A stretch of DNA of 64,000 bases, from assembly GCA_903861005.1 (NCBI GenBank), contig CAIOSP010000045.1:62001-126000 (forward strand), written 5' to 3'. Source of the stretch: an uncultured Pseudomonadota bacterium. Its GTDB lineage: Bacteria > Myxococcota_A > UBA796 > GCA-2862545. Below, in pieces: positions 12,684 through 20,140 of the stretch (positions are counted from its first letter, which is position 1; the number at the start of each line of letters is the position of its first letter). Both the position numbers and the translations under genes were made by a program. Under the pieces are notes generated by a model. The model made no database searches and was not told the origin of the DNA. It saw nothing but the letters and a program-made list of their open reading frames with translations.

Positions 12684-13460
12684 ATGGCGGTGGCAAAGCG
12701 GAAGAGTGCGTCCGACGTGGGGCGCTTCCTCCGCACTCCGGGTCCGACGGGGCGCGGAAGGCGCGTCGTGCTGGCTCTTTTCGTGCTGTACATGGTCGAG
12801 CTCGTCGCGCAGGGCGTGGGGCTGCCCGTCGCGTTGCTCCTCCGCGCGCCCATGAGCGGCGCGGCCGGCCATGACCTGATGATGTCGTGGAACAACCTGA
12901 CCGGCCTGGCGCTCCAGCCGTCCTCCGCGGGGGGAGTCCCCAACACGCTGTTCGCCCTGTTCGCGGTCTACATGCTGTGGCCGGGTCTGGAGCAGCTGCT
13001 CGGCCTGCGCCGCCTGCTCGAGTCGCTCGCGTTCATGGTGCTCGGCGGTCTGCTGGTCGTGAACACGGTCGACGCGCTCGTCGCCTACGGCGGCGTGGGC
13101 CTGGGTCGCGCCTTCCTGGGCGGGTGGGCGCCGCTGCTGATCGGTACGCTGTGCCTGTTCGGCCTGCTCAACCCCAGCGCGAACATCTTGGTTTACTTCG
13201 TCATTCCCGTGCCGATGTGGGTGTTCACCTGGGGGTCGTTGGCGGTCGCGCTGATCGGCGGCCTCGCCGCGTTCGGTAGCGGAGAAGACATGCTGTATCC
13301 GGCACAAGCGCTCGGAATCTGGCTCGGCGCCTACGCGTGGTACAGCGCACGCGGCCCTGGCGGCCGTCGCCGTTACCTCAAGTCTGAGGCCACGAAGATC
13401 GAGCGCCAGCTCACCCGCCTGCGCGTTCTGCCCGGCGGCCGCGACGAGACCTTCCACTGA
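12684..13460 (+). CDS. Polytopic membrane protein, rhomboid-like layout without catalytic motifs
   Basis: This 258-residue protein has a basic N-terminus and about six hydrophobic segments (roughly residues 27-50, 85-103, 107-128, 137-160, 165-190 and 208-225), then a basic cytoplasmic tail. The layout resembles rhomboid/derlin-type proteins, but the GxSG serine and the partner histidine motif are not seen, so protease activity is not supported. The ATG has AGGAG seven bases upstream. It is divergent from the FHA protein gene (116 bp between start codons), so that gap probably holds both promoters. Function unknown. Confidence 0.7.
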   Translation: MAVAKRKSASDVGRFLRTPGPTGRGRRVVLALFVLYMVELVAQGVGLPVALLLRAPMSGAAGHDLMMSWNNLTGLALQPSSAGGVPNTLFALFAVYMLWPGLEQLLGLRRLLESLAFMVLGGLLVVNTVDALVAYGGVGLGRAFLGGWAPLLIGTLCLFGLLNPSANILVYFVIPVPMWVFTWGSLAVALIGGLAAFGSGEDMLYPAQALGIWLGAYAWYSARGPGGRRRYLKSEATKIERQLTRLRVLPGGRDETFH

Positions 13461-13534
13461 CCCACAAGCCCGCCACGGTCGAGCTGAGCGGCACGCCGGA
13501 CCCGGCGCGCGCCCGACGCCCTCGTCTGGGCATC

Positions 13535-14425
13535 GTGCTCGGGGCGGCCGGAGCGGTGGCGTTCGGGGTGGCGGGCCTGTGGCCGTGGGCCACCGTGATG
13601 GGCCTGCTGACCGCCGCGCTCGGGTCAACCGGACTGCGCACCGTCGACAGGCCGATCGTCGTCCGTGCAGACGCCGACGCGATCGTCGTCGATGATCCGT
13701 CGCAGGACGAGCCCTGGGTGCTGCCGCTCGCCCGGCTGCGCGCGCTGCGAATCCACCGTCACGCCCAGGACGACGAGCGCCGCGACGTGTGGCTCATGCT
13801 GGCGGACCGCCTGGGCCCGTCGCTCACCTTGCACCTGCGGCACGACCCGGCGGTGGCGCCTGAGGTCGGCGACATCGAGGTCGCCGCCCTCCACACGCTC
13901 ATCGGACACGAAGGCGACGCCATGCCCCCCGCGCGCCCGGCGCGGCAGGTGTTCGATGATCCCGCCGGTCAGCTGGTGCGCCACCTGCGCGCCCACGCGC
14001 CGCCCGGCGTGACCGATCGCGCGGCGCTGCGCCTGTGGCGCGCTCGTCCCGACCCCGCCTCGCCCCGCGGCGCCGACGGCTGGATTGAGCTCGATGGCGA
14101 CCTGTGGCGGTGGAACGAAGGCCGCACGCCGGAAGAGGGCGTGTTCGCGCTGCCCCGCCTGACGCGGATTGAGGACACCGTTCGCCTGGAGCTCGCGACC
14201 GACCGCGCGCTGCGCTTCGTGGCCCCGGCGATCGCCGCGTTCGCTGCGGAGGGGTCCGAGGCGGCGACCGATCGCTGGCTAGAGCCGCGCGAAGGCGCCG
14301 TGCTGCTGGCCTGGCTGATCGCCCGCTGGCCGGACGGTTCGTGGCCCGCGGCGCTGCGCAAGCGCGTGCTCGGCCCCGCGGACGGATCGCGTGTGCGCCT
14401 GCCCGCGACGATGCGTCGCCCCTGA
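13535..14425 (+). CDS. Hypothetical protein with N-terminal membrane segment
   Basis: From the GTG at 13535 the product is 296 residues, with one or two hydrophobic segments at residues 1-30 and a soluble remainder rich in Arg, Asp and Ala. The frame stays open upstream to a CTG at 13457 that overlaps the stop codon of the preceding gene (CTGA), with no ATG between. The real start may therefore lie earlier, and the pair may be translationally coupled. Trp-rich stretches (DGDLWRWNEGRTPEEGVF) are distinctive but I do not recognise the family. The coding frame is well supported by GC3 pattern; function unknown. Confidence 0.65.
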   Translation: MLGAAGAVAFGVAGLWPWATVMGLLTAALGSTGLRTVDRPIVVRADADAIVVDDPSQDEPWVLPLARLRALRIHRHAQDDERRDVWLMLADRLGPSLTLHLRHDPAVAPEVGDIEVAALHTLIGHEGDAMPPARPARQVFDDPAGQLVRHLRAHAPPGVTDRAALRLWRARPDPASPRGADGWIELDGDLWRWNEGRTPEEGVFALPRLTRIEDTVRLELATDRALRFVAPAIAAFAAEGSEAATDRWLEPREGAVLLAWLIARWPDGSWPAALRKRVLGPADGSRVRLPATMRRP

Positions 14426-14476
14426 ATCGGTCGACGTAGGCGCCGCGGCGTTTTAGTCGAAGGGCTCGGAGCGTGG

Positions 14477-15151
14477 ATGACCAAGCACCTGTCGGAGGGT
14501 GAGCGACGCGCCCAGATCCTCACGGCCGCCCGCGACGAGTTCATCGAGCATGGCTACGCGGAGACCCGCGTCGGCGATGTGGCGAAGCGCGCTGAGCTCT
14601 CGAAGGGCGCGGTCTACTTCTACTACCCGTCCAAGCGCGACCTGTTCATGGCGCTGGTGCTGGCCGAGCATGAGGCCACCTACGCGTTCCTCGACAGCGC
14701 CGAGCACGACGAGATGCCCGCGCTGTTCAAGCTGCTGCGCGTGGGCTGGGAGTACCTGGAGTTCTTCGCCGGCAAGCAGCAGCCGCCGCGCTTCTTCCTG
14801 ATGATGACCGAGGCCGCCACCCGCGACGAGGAGATCCGGACCGAGTGCCGGGCGCTCCACCAGCGCTTCGTCGACGCCGCCACGCGCATCCTCACCCAGG
14901 GCGTCGAAGAGGGCGCGTTCCGCCCGATGGACCCGGGCGCCGTCGCCCGTATGCTCAAGGCGATGATCGACGGCTTCGGTGGCCACGCGGCGATCGAGGT
15001 TGGCCCGGACGCCTCCGACATGGCCAACGAGGGTTTCCGCACCGTGCTGAAGGGCATCCTGGCGGATCCCGGCCAGGCCGACCTGTTCATGGAGGCCGCG
15101 ATGGCCGCCCGCGATCTCGGACTGCGTGCGTCCGGGGCCCGACAAGGCTAG
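14477..15151 (+). CDS. TetR/AcrR-family transcriptional regulator
   Basis: This 224-residue protein has an N-terminal TetR helix-turn-helix (about residues 9-55; VGDVAKRAELSKGAVYFYYP, then SKRDLFMAL). An all-helical ligand-binding and dimerisation domain follows (about 65-210). TetR proteins usually repress a neighbouring gene until a small molecule binds. It is followed after 25 bp by a pair of paralogous coiled-coil protein genes, which are the likeliest co-transcribed or regulated targets. Upstream, TCGAC and GTCGA arms at 14431-14460 flank an AT-richer stretch and could be part of an operator; this is weak. Confidence 0.93.
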   Translation: MTKHLSEGERRAQILTAARDEFIEHGYAETRVGDVAKRAELSKGAVYFYYPSKRDLFMALVLAEHEATYAFLDSAEHDEMPALFKLLRVGWEYLEFFAGKQQPPRFFLMMTEAATRDEEIRTECRALHQRFVDAATRILTQGVEEGAFRPMDPGAVARMLKAMIDGFGGHAAIEVGPDASDMANEGFRTVLKGILADPGQADLFMEAAMAARDLGLRASGARQG

Positions 15152-15176
15152 GACCGGCGTCCTCGGAGGGTAGCGG

Positions 15177-15635
15177 ATGGGCATCCGGCAGACCGTCGCT
15201 TCGGCGCTCGCGGCGCCTTTGATCCGCGCCTTGGAAGGCGTGCTGCACAAGTCCGTCGACGACGTGCTGACCGCGCGCGCCCCGGCCGGTCGCGCCGACG
15301 TTGACGCCGCCCGCCGCGTGCTGGACGACATCCGCCGCGACCTGAGCGCGCGCCGCGCAGACCTGGGCGCGCTGCACCAGGCGCTCGCGCTCTCCGAGCA
15401 GGGGCTCGACCAGGACCTTGAGGCCCTGTTCGACGACGCCCCCCGCCCCGACGCCGACGCCGTCGAGCGCAGCATCCTTATGCTTCAGGCCGCGGTCGAC
15501 GAGGTCGGCGTGCGGATCGACGCGCTCTCCGCCCGCGCCGGTCACGCCGCCGCTCGCGCCGAGCAGGCCAGCCAGATCGCCACCACCGCACGTGCCACGG
15601 CCGAGTCCCTCGCGGACGCGCTGGACGCACGCTGA
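15177..15635 (+). CDS. Coiled-coil protein, first of a paralogous pair
   Basis: This 152-residue protein has an N-terminal amphipathic start (MGIRQTVASALAAPLIRALE) closely paralleling the next gene (MGIRSTLSALVSAPIAAAIE). Long Ala/Arg/Asp-rich helices follow (about residues 40-150) with heptad character. There is no signal peptide and no Cys. The ATG is preceded by GGAGGGTAGCGG. It lies 25 bp after the TetR gene and 19 bp before its paralogue, so the three are probably one operon. The amphipathic N-terminus and coils resemble surface-coating proteins such as phasins in general form only; no family recognised. Confidence 0.75.
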   Translation: MGIRQTVASALAAPLIRALEGVLHKSVDDVLTARAPAGRADVDAARRVLDDIRRDLSARRADLGALHQALALSEQGLDQDLEALFDDAPRPDADAVERSILMLQAAVDEVGVRIDALSARAGHAAARAEQASQIATTARATAESLADALDAR

Positions 15636-15654
15636 CGTCATCCGAGAGGTCGCC

Positions 15655-16347
15655 ATGGGCATCCGCAGCACGCTGTCCGCACTGGTCTCTGCACCCATCG
15701 CCGCGGCCATCGAAGCGCGGGTTCGCGCGATCGTCGACGAGGCGCTCGCCCAACACGACGTGGTCGACGCGGCCGAGGTCCGCGAGCTGACCGCCGCCGT
15801 CTCCACCGCCCGCACGAGCGCCGACGCGCTCAAGCGCGACATTGCCGCGGCGCAGTCGTCCGTGGCCGCGCTCTCCGCCAGCCTGCCCGAGCCGGGCGAG
15901 TCTGGCGGTGGCCTGGGTGACGCGCTCGCCGACGCCCGTCGCAAGCTCGACGCGCTGTCCGACCGCCTGGTCGCGGTGGCCGACCAGATCACCCGCGCCG
16001 AGGCCCGCGCTGACCGCGCCGCTGAGGACGCCTCGCGCGCCAGCACGCTGACCGCGCGCCCCGCGGCCACAGCGCCCGCCCCCGCACCGGCCTCCAAGGA
16101 CCGCGGCTGCAAGGTGCCTGGCTGCACCGCCGACCACCGCGCCCGCGGGTTCTGCGGCAAGCACTACCAGATGTGGAAGCGCTCCACCCTCTCCGGCTTC
16201 GTCGGCGAGGACGGCACGCTGTTCGTCCAGGTCGACGGCCCACGCTGGAAGGTCGCGCTGGCGCTCGCAGGCGAGCCCGGCACGCTCGAAGGCAGCGTCG
16301 TCCGCGTGGCCGGCCAGGCGGTCGACGCCGCCCCGGCGCCCGTATAG
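15655..16347 (+). CDS. Coiled-coil protein with C-terminal Cys/His putative zinc motif
   Basis: This 230-residue paralogue of the preceding gene begins at ATG 15655 (GAGAGG upstream). An N-terminal amphipathic helix and coiled coil (about residues 1-130) are joined by an Ala/Pro linker (about 134-147) to a small module with Cys152, Cys157, Cys167 and His170. Its core, ARGFCGKHYQMWKR, belongs to a C-x4-C-x9-C-x2-H pattern also seen in small zinc-binding or HNH-related modules of phage and actinobacterial proteins. The last 50 residues form a beta-rich segment. The module suggests nucleic-acid or protein binding, while the coiled coil would allow pairing with the preceding protein. Role unknown. 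Confidence 0.75.
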   Translation: MGIRSTLSALVSAPIAAAIEARVRAIVDEALAQHDVVDAAEVRELTAAVSTARTSADALKRDIAAAQSSVAALSASLPEPGESGGGLGDALADARRKLDALSDRLVAVADQITRAEARADRAAEDASRASTLTARPAATAPAPAPASKDRGCKVPGCTADHRARGFCGKHYQMWKRSTLSGFVGEDGTLFVQVDGPRWKVALALAGEPGTLEGSVVRVAGQAVDAAPAPV

Positions 16348-16397
16348 TCCCCGCTGGGCGTCCGCCTGAAAGCTGACTTCGCACCGGAGATTGGGCC

Positions 16398-16997
16398 ATG
16401 TTCCAGGGTTACGGTTTCTACCTTGCCGCGGGCCTGCTCTTCGTCGTGCTGGCGCTGATCGGCCGCGTGATGTGGCAGGGCTTCCTGTCCCGCGACGCGT
16501 TCAAGGAGGCCGCGGACAAGCTCGGCATCGCGTGGAACGAGACCGAGCCGTTCGCGCCGGGCGAGTGCACGGGCACGATCGACGGTGACACCGTGCGCAT
16601 CTACATCGAGAAGGTGGGATCAGGGTCGATGGAGCGACAGCTCACGGCCGTTGAGGTGGACCTGGTCCCGCCGCTCGACGTCGAATTCGACATCGGGAAA
16701 GAGAACATCATCACCCGGCTCTTCCGCCGGGCGGGCAGCCACGACATCGAGTTCGACGATGCGCCGTTCGACAAGGTGTACCGAATCAGCGGCCATGACC
16801 ACGTCGCCATTCGGAAGCTGTTCACGACCGACGTGCGCGCCGCCTTGGTGCTGATGGCGAAGGGCTCCGACGACCTGATCATCCGCCCGGAGATGATCCG
16901 GTGGGAGGCAGGCCGTCGCGTGTTCCGCTCCGACGAGCTGGTGCGCGTCGCGCACGCGGCCTGCAGCGCCGCGCGCGGGATGCGCAACGCGAGCTAG
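16398..16997 (+). CDS. Single-pass membrane protein of unknown function
   Basis: This 199-residue protein has one N-terminal transmembrane helix (about residues 6-27) and a soluble, probably cytoplasmic, domain of mixed alpha/beta character. It lies 50 bp after the Cys/His protein gene and converges with the aldehyde dehydrogenase gene, with the two 3' ends overlapping by 4 bp. That overlap leaves no room for a classical terminator between them. No recognised family; codon usage is typical of the window. Confidence 0.7.
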   Translation: MFQGYGFYLAAGLLFVVLALIGRVMWQGFLSRDAFKEAADKLGIAWNETEPFAPGECTGTIDGDTVRIYIEKVGSGSMERQLTAVEVDLVPPLDVEFDIGKENIITRLFRRAGSHDIEFDDAPFDKVYRISGHDHVAIRKLFTTDVRAALVLMAKGSDDLIIRPEMIRWEAGRRVFRSDELVRVAHAACSAARGMRNAS

Positions 16998-18505
16998 AGG
17001 TCGAACTTCACGCCCTGGGCCAGCGGCAGCGTGGTGCCCCAGTTCAGCGTGTTGGTCTGGCGACGCATGTAGGACTTCCAGGAGTCGCTGCCGGCCTCGC
17101 GGCCGCCGCCCGTGTCCTTCTCGCCGCCGAACGCGCCGCCGATCTCAGCGCCGGACGTGCCGATGTTGACGTTGGCGATGCCGCAGTCCGACCCGGCGTG
17201 GGACAGGAAGCGCTCGGCCGCGCGGAACGAGTCGGTGAAGATGGCGGACGACAGGCCCTGGTCGACCGCGTTGTTCATGGCGATCGCCTCGTCCAGATCC
17301 CGCCACGTCGACACGTAGAGGATGGGGGCGAAGGTCTCCTCGTGCACGATCGGCAGATTGGACGCAGCGCGGAACAGGGTGGGCTGAACGAAGTGGCCGG
17401 GGCCGTCGACCCGCGCGCCGCCCGCGAGCAGCTCAGCGCCCTGCGTCTTGGCCGCCGCGATCGCCGCCTCGAACAGCTGGACCGCGCCCTCGTCGATCAG
17501 CGGGCCGACGAGCACGCCGTCCTGCAGCGGATCGCCGATGCGCACACTCTTGTACGCGGCGACGAGCTTGGGCAGGAAGGTGTCCGCGATGTCCTCGTGG
17601 AGCAGCAGGCGACGCGTGGTGGTGCAGCGCTCGCCCGAGGTGCCCATGGCGCCGAACGCGACCGCGCGCAGGGCAAGGTCCAGGTCGGCGTCCTTGTTCA
17701 CGATGATCGCGTTGTTGCCGCCGAGCTCGAGCAGCGAGCGACCGAGGCGCGCCGCGACGGCCTGCCCGATGTGACGGCCCATGCGGCACGAGCCGGTGGC
17801 GGAGATCAGCGGCACGGCGCGGTCGTGGATCATCGCCTCACCGACGTCGGCGTCGTCGCCGATCACCAGGCCGAGCACGCCCGACCAGCCATGACGCGCG
17901 AGCACGGCGTCGCAGATCTGGTGGGTGGCGATGGCGGTCAGCGGCGCCTTGAGCGACGGCTTCCAGATCACCGGATCTCCGCAGACCAGGCCCAGCATGG
18001 CGTTCCACGCCCACACCGCGTGCGGGAAGTTGAAGGCCGTGATCACGCCGACCACGCCGAGCGGGTGCCACTGCTCGTACATGCGGTGGTTGGGGCGCTC
18101 AGAGTGCATGGTCAGGCCGTTGAGCTGGCGCGACAAGCCGACGGCGAAGTCCGCCATGTCGATCGCCTCCTGCACCTCGCCCTCGCCTTCGGACCGGAGC
18201 TTGCCGACCTCCATGGTGATGAGCGAGCCCAGGTCCGCCTTGTGCGCCCGCAGCGCCACGCCGATCTCGCGGACGATCTCGCCGCGCTTGGGGGCGGGCA
18301 ACATGCGCCAGCCGACGAAGGCCTCCTGCGCGCGCTGGACCACCGTGCGGTAGTCGGCCGCGCTGCACAGCTGGACCGACGCGAGCGCCTCACCCGTCGT
18401 CGGGTTGAAGCTCGACACCACGCGACCGTGGGTCTCGAGCCAGCCGCCGGAGGCCGCGCCAGGGTTGACTTCCGACAGGCCGAGCCGCGCCAGGACTTCG
18501 TTCAT
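16994..18505 (-). CDS. amaB: ALDH7-family dehydrogenase (alpha-aminoadipic semialdehyde / piperideine-6-carboxylate type)
   Basis: This 503-residue NAD(P)+-dependent aldehyde dehydrogenase begins at ATG 18505 (GGAGG seven bases upstream). The family-specific segment LELGGNNAIIV, the catalytic Cys in GTSGERCTTTRR, and the C-terminal signature FGGEKDTGGGREAGSD followed by LPLAQGVKFDL match antiquitin (ALDH7) enzymes. These oxidise alpha-aminoadipic semialdehyde in lysine catabolism. The symbol follows Pseudomonas amaB by family similarity. No other lysine-degradation gene is in the window, so the in vivo substrate is inferred. Cytoplasmic, tetrameric in the family. Confidence 0.92.
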   Translation of the reverse strand: MNEVLARLGLSEVNPGAASGGWLETHGRVVSSFNPTTGEALASVQLCSAADYRTVVQRAQEAFVGWRMLPAPKRGEIVREIGVALRAHKADLGSLITMEVGKLRSEGEGEVQEAIDMADFAVGLSRQLNGLTMHSERPNHRMYEQWHPLGVVGVITAFNFPHAVWAWNAMLGLVCGDPVIWKPSLKAPLTAIATHQICDAVLARHGWSGVLGLVIGDDADVGEAMIHDRAVPLISATGSCRMGRHIGQAVAARLGRSLLELGGNNAIIVNKDADLDLALRAVAFGAMGTSGERCTTTRRLLLHEDIADTFLPKLVAAYKSVRIGDPLQDGVLVGPLIDEGAVQLFEAAIAAAKTQGAELLAGGARVDGPGHFVQPTLFRAASNLPIVHEETFAPILYVSTWRDLDEAIAMNNAVDQGLSSAIFTDSFRAAERFLSHAGSDCGIANVNIGTSGAEIGGAFGGEKDTGGGREAGSDSWKSYMRRQTNTLNWGTTLPLAQGVKFDL

Positions 18506-19969: not shown

Positions 19970-20140
19970 TTACGGGATCGCGATGTTCAGGGCGTTGGAG
20001 ACCTCGCCGAAGTTGTCGGAGAGGGCGGTGCCGAGGGTGGTGAGCGCGCCGATGATGGCGACCGCGATCAACGCCGCGATCAGGCCGTACTCGATCGCCG
20101 TGACACCCTCCTCTTCGCGAAAGAAACGAACCAGAGACAT
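19970..20140 (-). CDS. flp: Flp/Fap-type (type IVb) pilin
   Basis: This 56-residue protein is preceded by an AGGAAGG ribosome-binding site. It has a short basic leader (MSLVRFFREEEG), a prepilin-peptidase cleavage site after Gly12, and the Flp signature VTAIEYGLIAALIAVAII (starting at residue 13) that forms the hydrophobic helix. Flp pilins assemble into tight-adherence pili through the Tad secretion machinery. No tad, rcp or prepilin peptidase gene is in the window, so this is a solitary pilin gene whose assembly system must be elsewhere. Confidence 0.9.
   Translation of the reverse strand: MSLVRFFREEEGVTAIEYGLIAALIAVAIIGALTTLGTALSDNFGEVSNALNIAIP

Follow-up and report, generated by a model that had tools for sequence, protein, structure and literature searches.

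Phasins cover the surface of storage granules and can fasten these to the chromosome. In PhaF and PhaM, which carry a histone-like tail, and in PhaH, which carries an HhH domain, the N-terminus is described as contacting the granule and the C-terminus as contacting DNA (PMC13052382, PMC9239181, PMC9049629). The order of parts in PhaF is given as an amphipathic helix, a short zipper and a DNA-binding tail (PMC5658603). The tailed PhaF and the tail-less PhaI of Pseudomonas are thought to be heteromeric, and their genes are described as regulated by the TetR-like PhaD (PMC9049629). AlgP of Pseudomonas aeruginosa combines a helical N-terminus with a KPAA tail and is reported to space polyphosphate granules (PMC9239181), and in Rhodococcus jostii a single operon, MLDS/MLDSR, is described as encoding a protein that bridges lipid droplets and DNA together with a regulator (PMC5504291). 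Granule-nucleoid tethers have been described in a small number of Proteobacteria, and each of them uses a single type of DNA-binding tail; literature searches on phasins and nucleoid tethers, in which the sources were available as excerpts, returned no zinc-tailed phasin.

A comparable arrangement is present in the window, by which we mean the whole stretch of 64,000 nucleotides analyzed here. Like the PhaD-PhaI-PhaF genes of Pseudomonas putida, as these appear in excerpts of the reports (PMC9049629, PMC5658603), it encodes a TetR-like regulator and a short and a long protein (A and B) with a predicted leucine-zipper module, the long one alone bearing a tail of DNA-binding type. It differs in that the tail of B is a putative zinc module instead of KPAA, the genome contains no PHA synthase domain, the phasin cut-off is missed, and the TetR gene lies upstream within the same gene run. 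We tentatively favor the reading, to which we assign a probability of roughly 0.45 and which draws on sequence and on analogy with the systems above, that B would form a PhaF-like oligomer tethering a hydrophobic surface, either a granule or a membrane, to DNA, and that A would be its tail-less partner.

Organization of the Locus

Six genes on the plus strand, separated by short gaps, form a run at positions 12684-16997, in which the TetR gene is the third. The first gene (12684-13460) encodes a membrane protein without a Pfam family, orthologues of which lie 5' of TetR in most loci of the window's family (f1); the second (13535-14425, with an alternative start at 13556) encodes a membrane-anchored protein to which no family was assigned. 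The TetR-family regulator (14477-15151; Pfam TetR_N, 58.5 bits against a cut-off of 24) is followed after 25 bp by protein A (15177-15635), whose 152 residues comprise a phasin-like N-terminal module and a predicted coiled coil and end without a tail. After a further 19 bp comes protein B (15655-16347, ATG at 15655), in which 230 residues are predicted to form an N-terminal module, a coiled coil, a linker, a zinc module and a small beta domain. These coordinates and reading frames, and the 25-bp gap behind TetR, were correct in the earlier note on this DNA. The run closes with a gene for a membrane-anchored protein (16398-16997) that has a relative in genome G006. Its convergent neighbor on the minus strand (16994-18505) encodes L-piperidine-6-carboxylate dehydrogenase (ALDH; NCBIfam NF050084, 760.8 bits against a cut-off of 730), which adjoins the position of B in many relatives.

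Homology and History of A and B

A and B are homologous coding genes. Both proteins start with MGIR and are 31% identical over 77 N-terminal residues (E=1e-5 in a single BLASTP comparison), and a profile (A1) built from 16 B proteins, with no A protein included, finds A in its own genome (G000, 96.7% complete) at E=5.9e-9. Comparison with the congeneric genome G001 gives dN/dS values of 0.13 (A), 0.082 (B, the orthologues of which are 96% identical) and 0.024 (TetR); the low values for A and B indicate that both genes are real and constrained by purifying selection. Neither protein reaches the cut-off of any Pfam or NCBIfam family.

In a tree of the N-terminal modules (81 N-modules, 74 columns, FastTree, midpoint root), the A proteins of four genomes (G000, G001, G002 and G006) group together with a support of 0.88 within f1, close to the B proteins from those genera; several f1 nodes are poorly supported (0.17-0.66). 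The short partners of six genomes of family f7 form a separate clade (0.965), apart from the f7 B proteins (0.806). The two separate short-partner clades show that a tail-less protein encoded next to B had at least two origins, one in f1 and one in f7/f9. The origin of A and B by duplication, as proposed in the earlier note, is borne out by the BLASTP comparison, the profile match and this tree. Lack of conservation of the Cys/His motif and the pairing in any relative, named in that note as grounds for refutation, does not apply: the motif is conserved among B proteins (below), and the pairing recurs in relatives.

In genome G065, of family f9, the paralogue that groups with the f7 short partners has the zinc module, and the other paralogue is cut by a contig end. 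The presence of a zinc-module protein among the f7 short partners suggests that both members of an ancestral f7/f9 pair may have been tailed. A gene of the family appears to be split across the ends of two contigs of this genome (L128 and L070). At L141 3897-4618 (G048), the N-module is encoded in one frame and the zinc module in another that overlaps it, reflecting a frameshift or an assembly error.

Distribution

With B as the query, 55 of 93 related genomes gave a match at E<=0.01, two of these (G084 and G092) being weak matches in other classes; a scan of the genome contigs gave only two relatives. The profile of the B family matched 61 of the 71 genomes of the window's class at E<=1e-5. 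A profile of the tail (A2) matched 46 of 282 genomes of the phylum at E<=1e-4, all of them within the class except G071 and G284, indicating that, among the genomes searched, the family is specific to one class.

The C-Terminal Tail of B

The motif C-x4-C-x9-C-x2-H of B (C152, C157, C167 and H170; 16108-16164) is absent from A. Its 4-9-2 spacing is found in all 39 full-length B proteins, including that of the window, which were extracted with a pattern that fixes the first spacing at 4. A looser pattern, C-x3-5-C-x5-13-C-x2-H, is present in all 40 loci of B that were read (L033-L072), where the flanking sequence is RSKGFCxxHYQxWRRGTLxGFV-like; B was read by motif and choice of start in 12 loci and is cut by contig ends in L060 and L070. 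The spacing in 39 of 39 B proteins and the absence of the motif from A uphold the proposal of a conserved Cys/His module on one partner only.

The tail is predicted to be the zinc module that phage nucleases of the HNH and endonuclease VII types carry. PHROG 5351 (HNH endonuclease) matches residues 150-177 of B at E=6.6e-8, and the modules of PHROG 5351 and PHROG 1271 are of the same C-x4-C-x9-C-x2-H-Y type. The module was found in 41 viral loci, from which 40 open frames were extracted and 10 scanned; all 10 contain HNH_3, HNH or Endonuclease_7, one of the HNH_3 matches being below the cut-off. In phage the module stands in front of HNH nucleases, whereas in B it lies in the C-terminal part, with a small, conserved beta domain after it, and the Pfam scan of B contained no HNH catalytic domain. 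In genome G040 (L156:2746-3642), three tandem copies of the zinc module precede a nuclease-like region.

The module is preceded in B by an Ala/Pro-rich linker (residues 135-148; 16057-16098), for which AlphaFold2 confidence is low (pLDDT under 50), and followed by the conserved motif Y-x2-W-K/R-R-x2-L-x-G-F-V-x2-D-G and the small beta domain predicted by AlphaFold2 (16165-16344). The C-terminal 84 residues (16093-16344) are modeled with a mean pLDDT of 91.9 and a pTM of 0.81. Foldseek retrieved no PDB chain for this part at E<=0.001, and BFVD gave short matches over the zinc module only, at E>=0.14, several of them to HNH proteins. The model of whole B (pLDDT 77.1, pTM 0.41) gave coiled-coil matches only, none at E<=0.001 in Foldseek, and helical matches with Z up to 12.4 in VIA-align, under the meaningful level of that tool. 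Sequence profiles searched against the PDB likewise yielded nothing convincing for the tail and only generic coiled coils for whole B.

By a hand count from the labels, 48 of the 81 N-modules in the tree set are accompanied by the zinc module. Those without it belong to A-type partners, stand-alone paralogues of families f3-f6, HhH- and Lys-tailed proteins, genes cut by contig ends, and four f4 proteins (L135, L139, L142 and L148). The four f4 proteins, whose genes neighbor TetR, ALDH or both, no longer have the Cys/His residues and have kept YxRWRxGxLPGxIGPDG and the beta part; this retention implies a role for the YxRWRxGxLPG/beta part besides zinc binding.

The N-Terminal Module

The N-terminal module of B (residues 1-75; 15655-15879) resembles the oligomerization module of phasins, PhaR and UbiK, with a predicted helix, turn and coiled coil. 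PhaR is a DNA-binding regulator. In hhalign comparisons, in which coiled coils easily produce false similarity, the N-module profile scored 34.3 (probability 87%) against same-phylum phasins, 34.0 (probability 79%) against the C-termini of proteins that we take to be PhaR, and 25.6 over 56 columns against E. coli UbiK; the first two are comparisons with alignments and the third with a single sequence, and the scores do not separate a phasin from a UbiK type. The sets, nine phasins (most of them sub-threshold) and seven PhaR-like proteins, were both picked from 24 matches to the Pfam phasin model. None of 200 heptad-preserving column shuffles reached the phasin, PhaR or UbiK score (maxima 19.2, 21.4 and 19.1, respectively), and the N-module aligns in register with the phasin zipper, through helix, turn, S/T-R/A-x-E/D and coil. 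HrpB7, alanine-zipper, SMC and similar weak matches were discarded as coiled-coil noise.

Neither A nor B of the window matches the Pfam phasin model (PF05597, gathering score 28.8 bits). A B protein of f7 reaches 17.0 bits (E=0.006, profile positions 85-125 of 126), which is under the cut-off, and in G063, where A and B match the phasin model within one frame, the two scores add up to 31.6 bits, neither reaching the cut-off alone. The best Pfam match of the window's B is to BMFP (PF04380; 18.8 bits, E=0.0022), and B is the top BMFP-like place in its genome; sub-threshold matches among 16 family members are to BMFP in eight (best 1.6e-5), to phasin in two (best 0.0082) and to PHA_synth_III_E in two. 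Such matches, together with the UbiK score unequaled by shuffles and the shared order of helix, turn and coiled coil, raise the alternative of a UbiK/BMFP-like pair, in which a membrane-associated coiled coil would assist a lipid-soluble pathway, for quinones or for lipids, and the tail would serve as a protein-protein module. We consider this improbable: the BMFP match falls short of its gathering score of 37.2 bits, UbiK (96 residues) has no such C-terminal tail, and the zinc, HhH and KPAA tails that are exchanged at the position of B (below) all indicate nucleic acid.

Both N-termini were described in the earlier note as amphipathic and as possibly binding lipid surfaces. The maximal hydrophobic moment over the first 33 residues is above that of shuffles (p<0.05) in 25 of 39 family members; in the window, the value of A is equaled by 185 of 2000 shuffles and is borderline, and that of B, equaled by 1426 of 2000, is ordinary. 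The amphipathic character described in that note is less well supported than its other observations. Binding to a lipid or granule surface is plausible from the likeness of the module to phasins and UbiK/BMFP, although the moment of the window's B is not raised.

Exchange of Tails at a Syntenic Position

The protein encoded at the TetR-linked position of B could be read in 20 of the 21 f1 genomes, the exception being G008, which has no TetR match. In ten genomes (G000, G001, G002, G004, G005, G006, G012, G016, G017 and G018) it carries the zinc module. In two others, G003 and G015, it carries a ComEA-type HhH, with HHH_3 in both and, in G003, a match above the TIGR00426 cut-off. The protein of G013 has a KPAA-rich, histone-like tail with a net charge of +16 in 60 residues, that of G007 a KRKRTKKKP tail, and those of the remaining six (G009, with two short proteins, G010, G011, G014, G019 and G020) are tail-less or have another C-terminus. 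The proteins of G010, G011 and G020 were assigned by position because the N-module is undetected by the profile (G010, G011) or weak (G020). Two of them, L218 6975-7418 (G020) and L221 7355-7795 (G011), both in flipped coordinates, share another conserved C-terminus ending in GK-A/N-RKGVL; that of G020 has no Pfam family in our scan.

Two of these tails recall described proteins, in each case likened by description only and from excerpts of the reports. The HhH-tailed proteins of G003 and G015, in which the N-module is joined to a ComEA-type HhH, recall PhaH of Caulobacter crescentus, an HhH-tailed phasin (PMC13052382), and the KPAA-tailed protein of G013 recalls AlgP (PMC9239181); the window's B differs from both in its zinc module. 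It is from the sharing of one position by the zinc module and by the HhH and KPAA tails of published tethers that we infer a tether. The helix-turn-coil module of B would oligomerize and sit on a storage granule, a lipid droplet or the inner membrane, and the C-terminal zinc module would bind DNA non-specifically, attaching the surface to the nucleoid. A, standing to B as PhaI does to PhaF, would co-assemble with it and dilute the DNA-binding tails. Weak points of the tether reading include its reliance on coiled-coil similarity and the existence of f4 proteins without the Cys/His residues. Also counting against it are the phasin cut-off that neither A nor B reaches, the larger number of members with a BMFP than with a phasin match, the share of N-modules that have the zinc module (48 of 81), the ordinary moment of the window's B and the missing link to storage genes (below). 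At a single syntenic position in one uncultured family, comparable coiled-coil proteins bear histone-like, HhH and zinc tails; if the tether reading is true, the architecture of tethers would be modular and testable by exchange, and the family would point to a compartment present in nearly the whole class (61 of 71 genomes) and left unaccounted for by the usual storage genes.

Candidate Surfaces

PHA granules were considered as the surface and rejected. PhaC_N (PF07167), the sole marker used, is absent from the window's genome, making a PHA surface unlikely there, and the family shows no significant association with it: PhaC_N occurs in 31 of the 61 genomes that contain the family and in 2 of the 10 that lack it (p=0.09, Fisher test), with matches that span mainly profile positions 117-171 and so may not be PHA synthases. 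WS/DGAT occurs in 11 of those 61 genomes and in 3 of those 10 (p=0.40), and polyphosphate kinase in 51 of 61 and 7 of 10, respectively (hand count); across the 71 class genomes, the presence of the family follows none of these three. The window's genome has two WS/DGAT matches and one polyphosphate kinase. In its WS/DGAT matches, and in pairing a candidate surface-DNA bridge with a regulator, it resembles MLDS/MLDSR, likened here by description from an excerpt (PMC5504291); the family, however, does not follow WS/DGAT. A membrane is equally possible as a granule for the surface of B.

The missing association with storage genes is compatible with B being a nucleoid-associated or regulatory DNA-binding protein with no lipid or granule partner, its coil oligomerizing the tails and A tuning their valency. 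Tails of DNA-binding type in several forms, the ordinary amphipathicity of the window's B and the sharing of the N-module with PhaR-like proteins would fit as well; we nevertheless judge such a protein unlikely, given the raised hydrophobic moment in 25 of 39 N-termini of the family and the inclusion of surface-associated proteins among those with the closest modules by profile.

A more specific form of the tether reading, which we regard as rather unlikely, posits a non-PHA intracellular surface, a new granule or membrane domain, held to the chromosome by zinc-finger-tailed, phasin-like proteins. The locus would keep the surface half and swap the DNA half among three unrelated types (zinc module, HhH or KPAA), and the tail-less partner would re-evolve repeatedly and set the density of tails.

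Regulation and Neighboring Genes

The TetR gene has a single-copy orthologue, taken as the one gene of a genome that matches with E<=1e-30, in 52 of the 71 class genomes: 52 of 63 in the window's order and 0 of 8 elsewhere in the class. The orthologue lies at most 2.7 kb from a family gene in 31 of the 51 same-order genomes tabulated (hand count, with the window left out) and on another contig in five f2 genomes (G026, G030, G035, G043 and G056). In f7 and f9 genomes, the pair is present and no TetR orthologue was found in the genome. Co-occurrence of the pair with TetR, a check suggested in the earlier note, is therefore seen in much of the class, usually near the locus, and fails in f7 and f9. 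No shared palindromic operator was detected in 32 TetR loci (the upstream stretch of L054 being empty at a contig end) and 22 ALDH loci, inverted repeats in the 200 bp upstream being no commoner across loci than in shuffles.

That A and B might form a small, TetR-controlled, inducible two-protein system was suggested by the TetR gene directly 5' of A, and the proximity in 31 of 51 genomes would agree with it. We find this very unlikely, since TetR is the third of six genes in a longer run, the loci share no operator, f7 and f9 have the pair without TetR, and several f2 genomes have TetR on another contig. For the tether that we favor, TetR would probably co-regulate the locus.

Apart from TetR, genes found repeatedly at the locus are those for ALDH and for a protein with a PD40 beta-propeller. 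In related families, the conserved neighbors of TetR and B include PD40 beta-propeller, transglutaminase-TPR, radical SAM/B12 and OmpA-family proteins (L056 5379-7773 and 8710-9714; L131 6247-7455; L042 3091-4689). A small protein at 19970-20140 (minus strand) of the window resembles Flp-type pilins, as judged by eye, and loci of f2 and f3 have similar pilin-like genes, encoding 66-68 residues, in the vicinity of B and ALDH.
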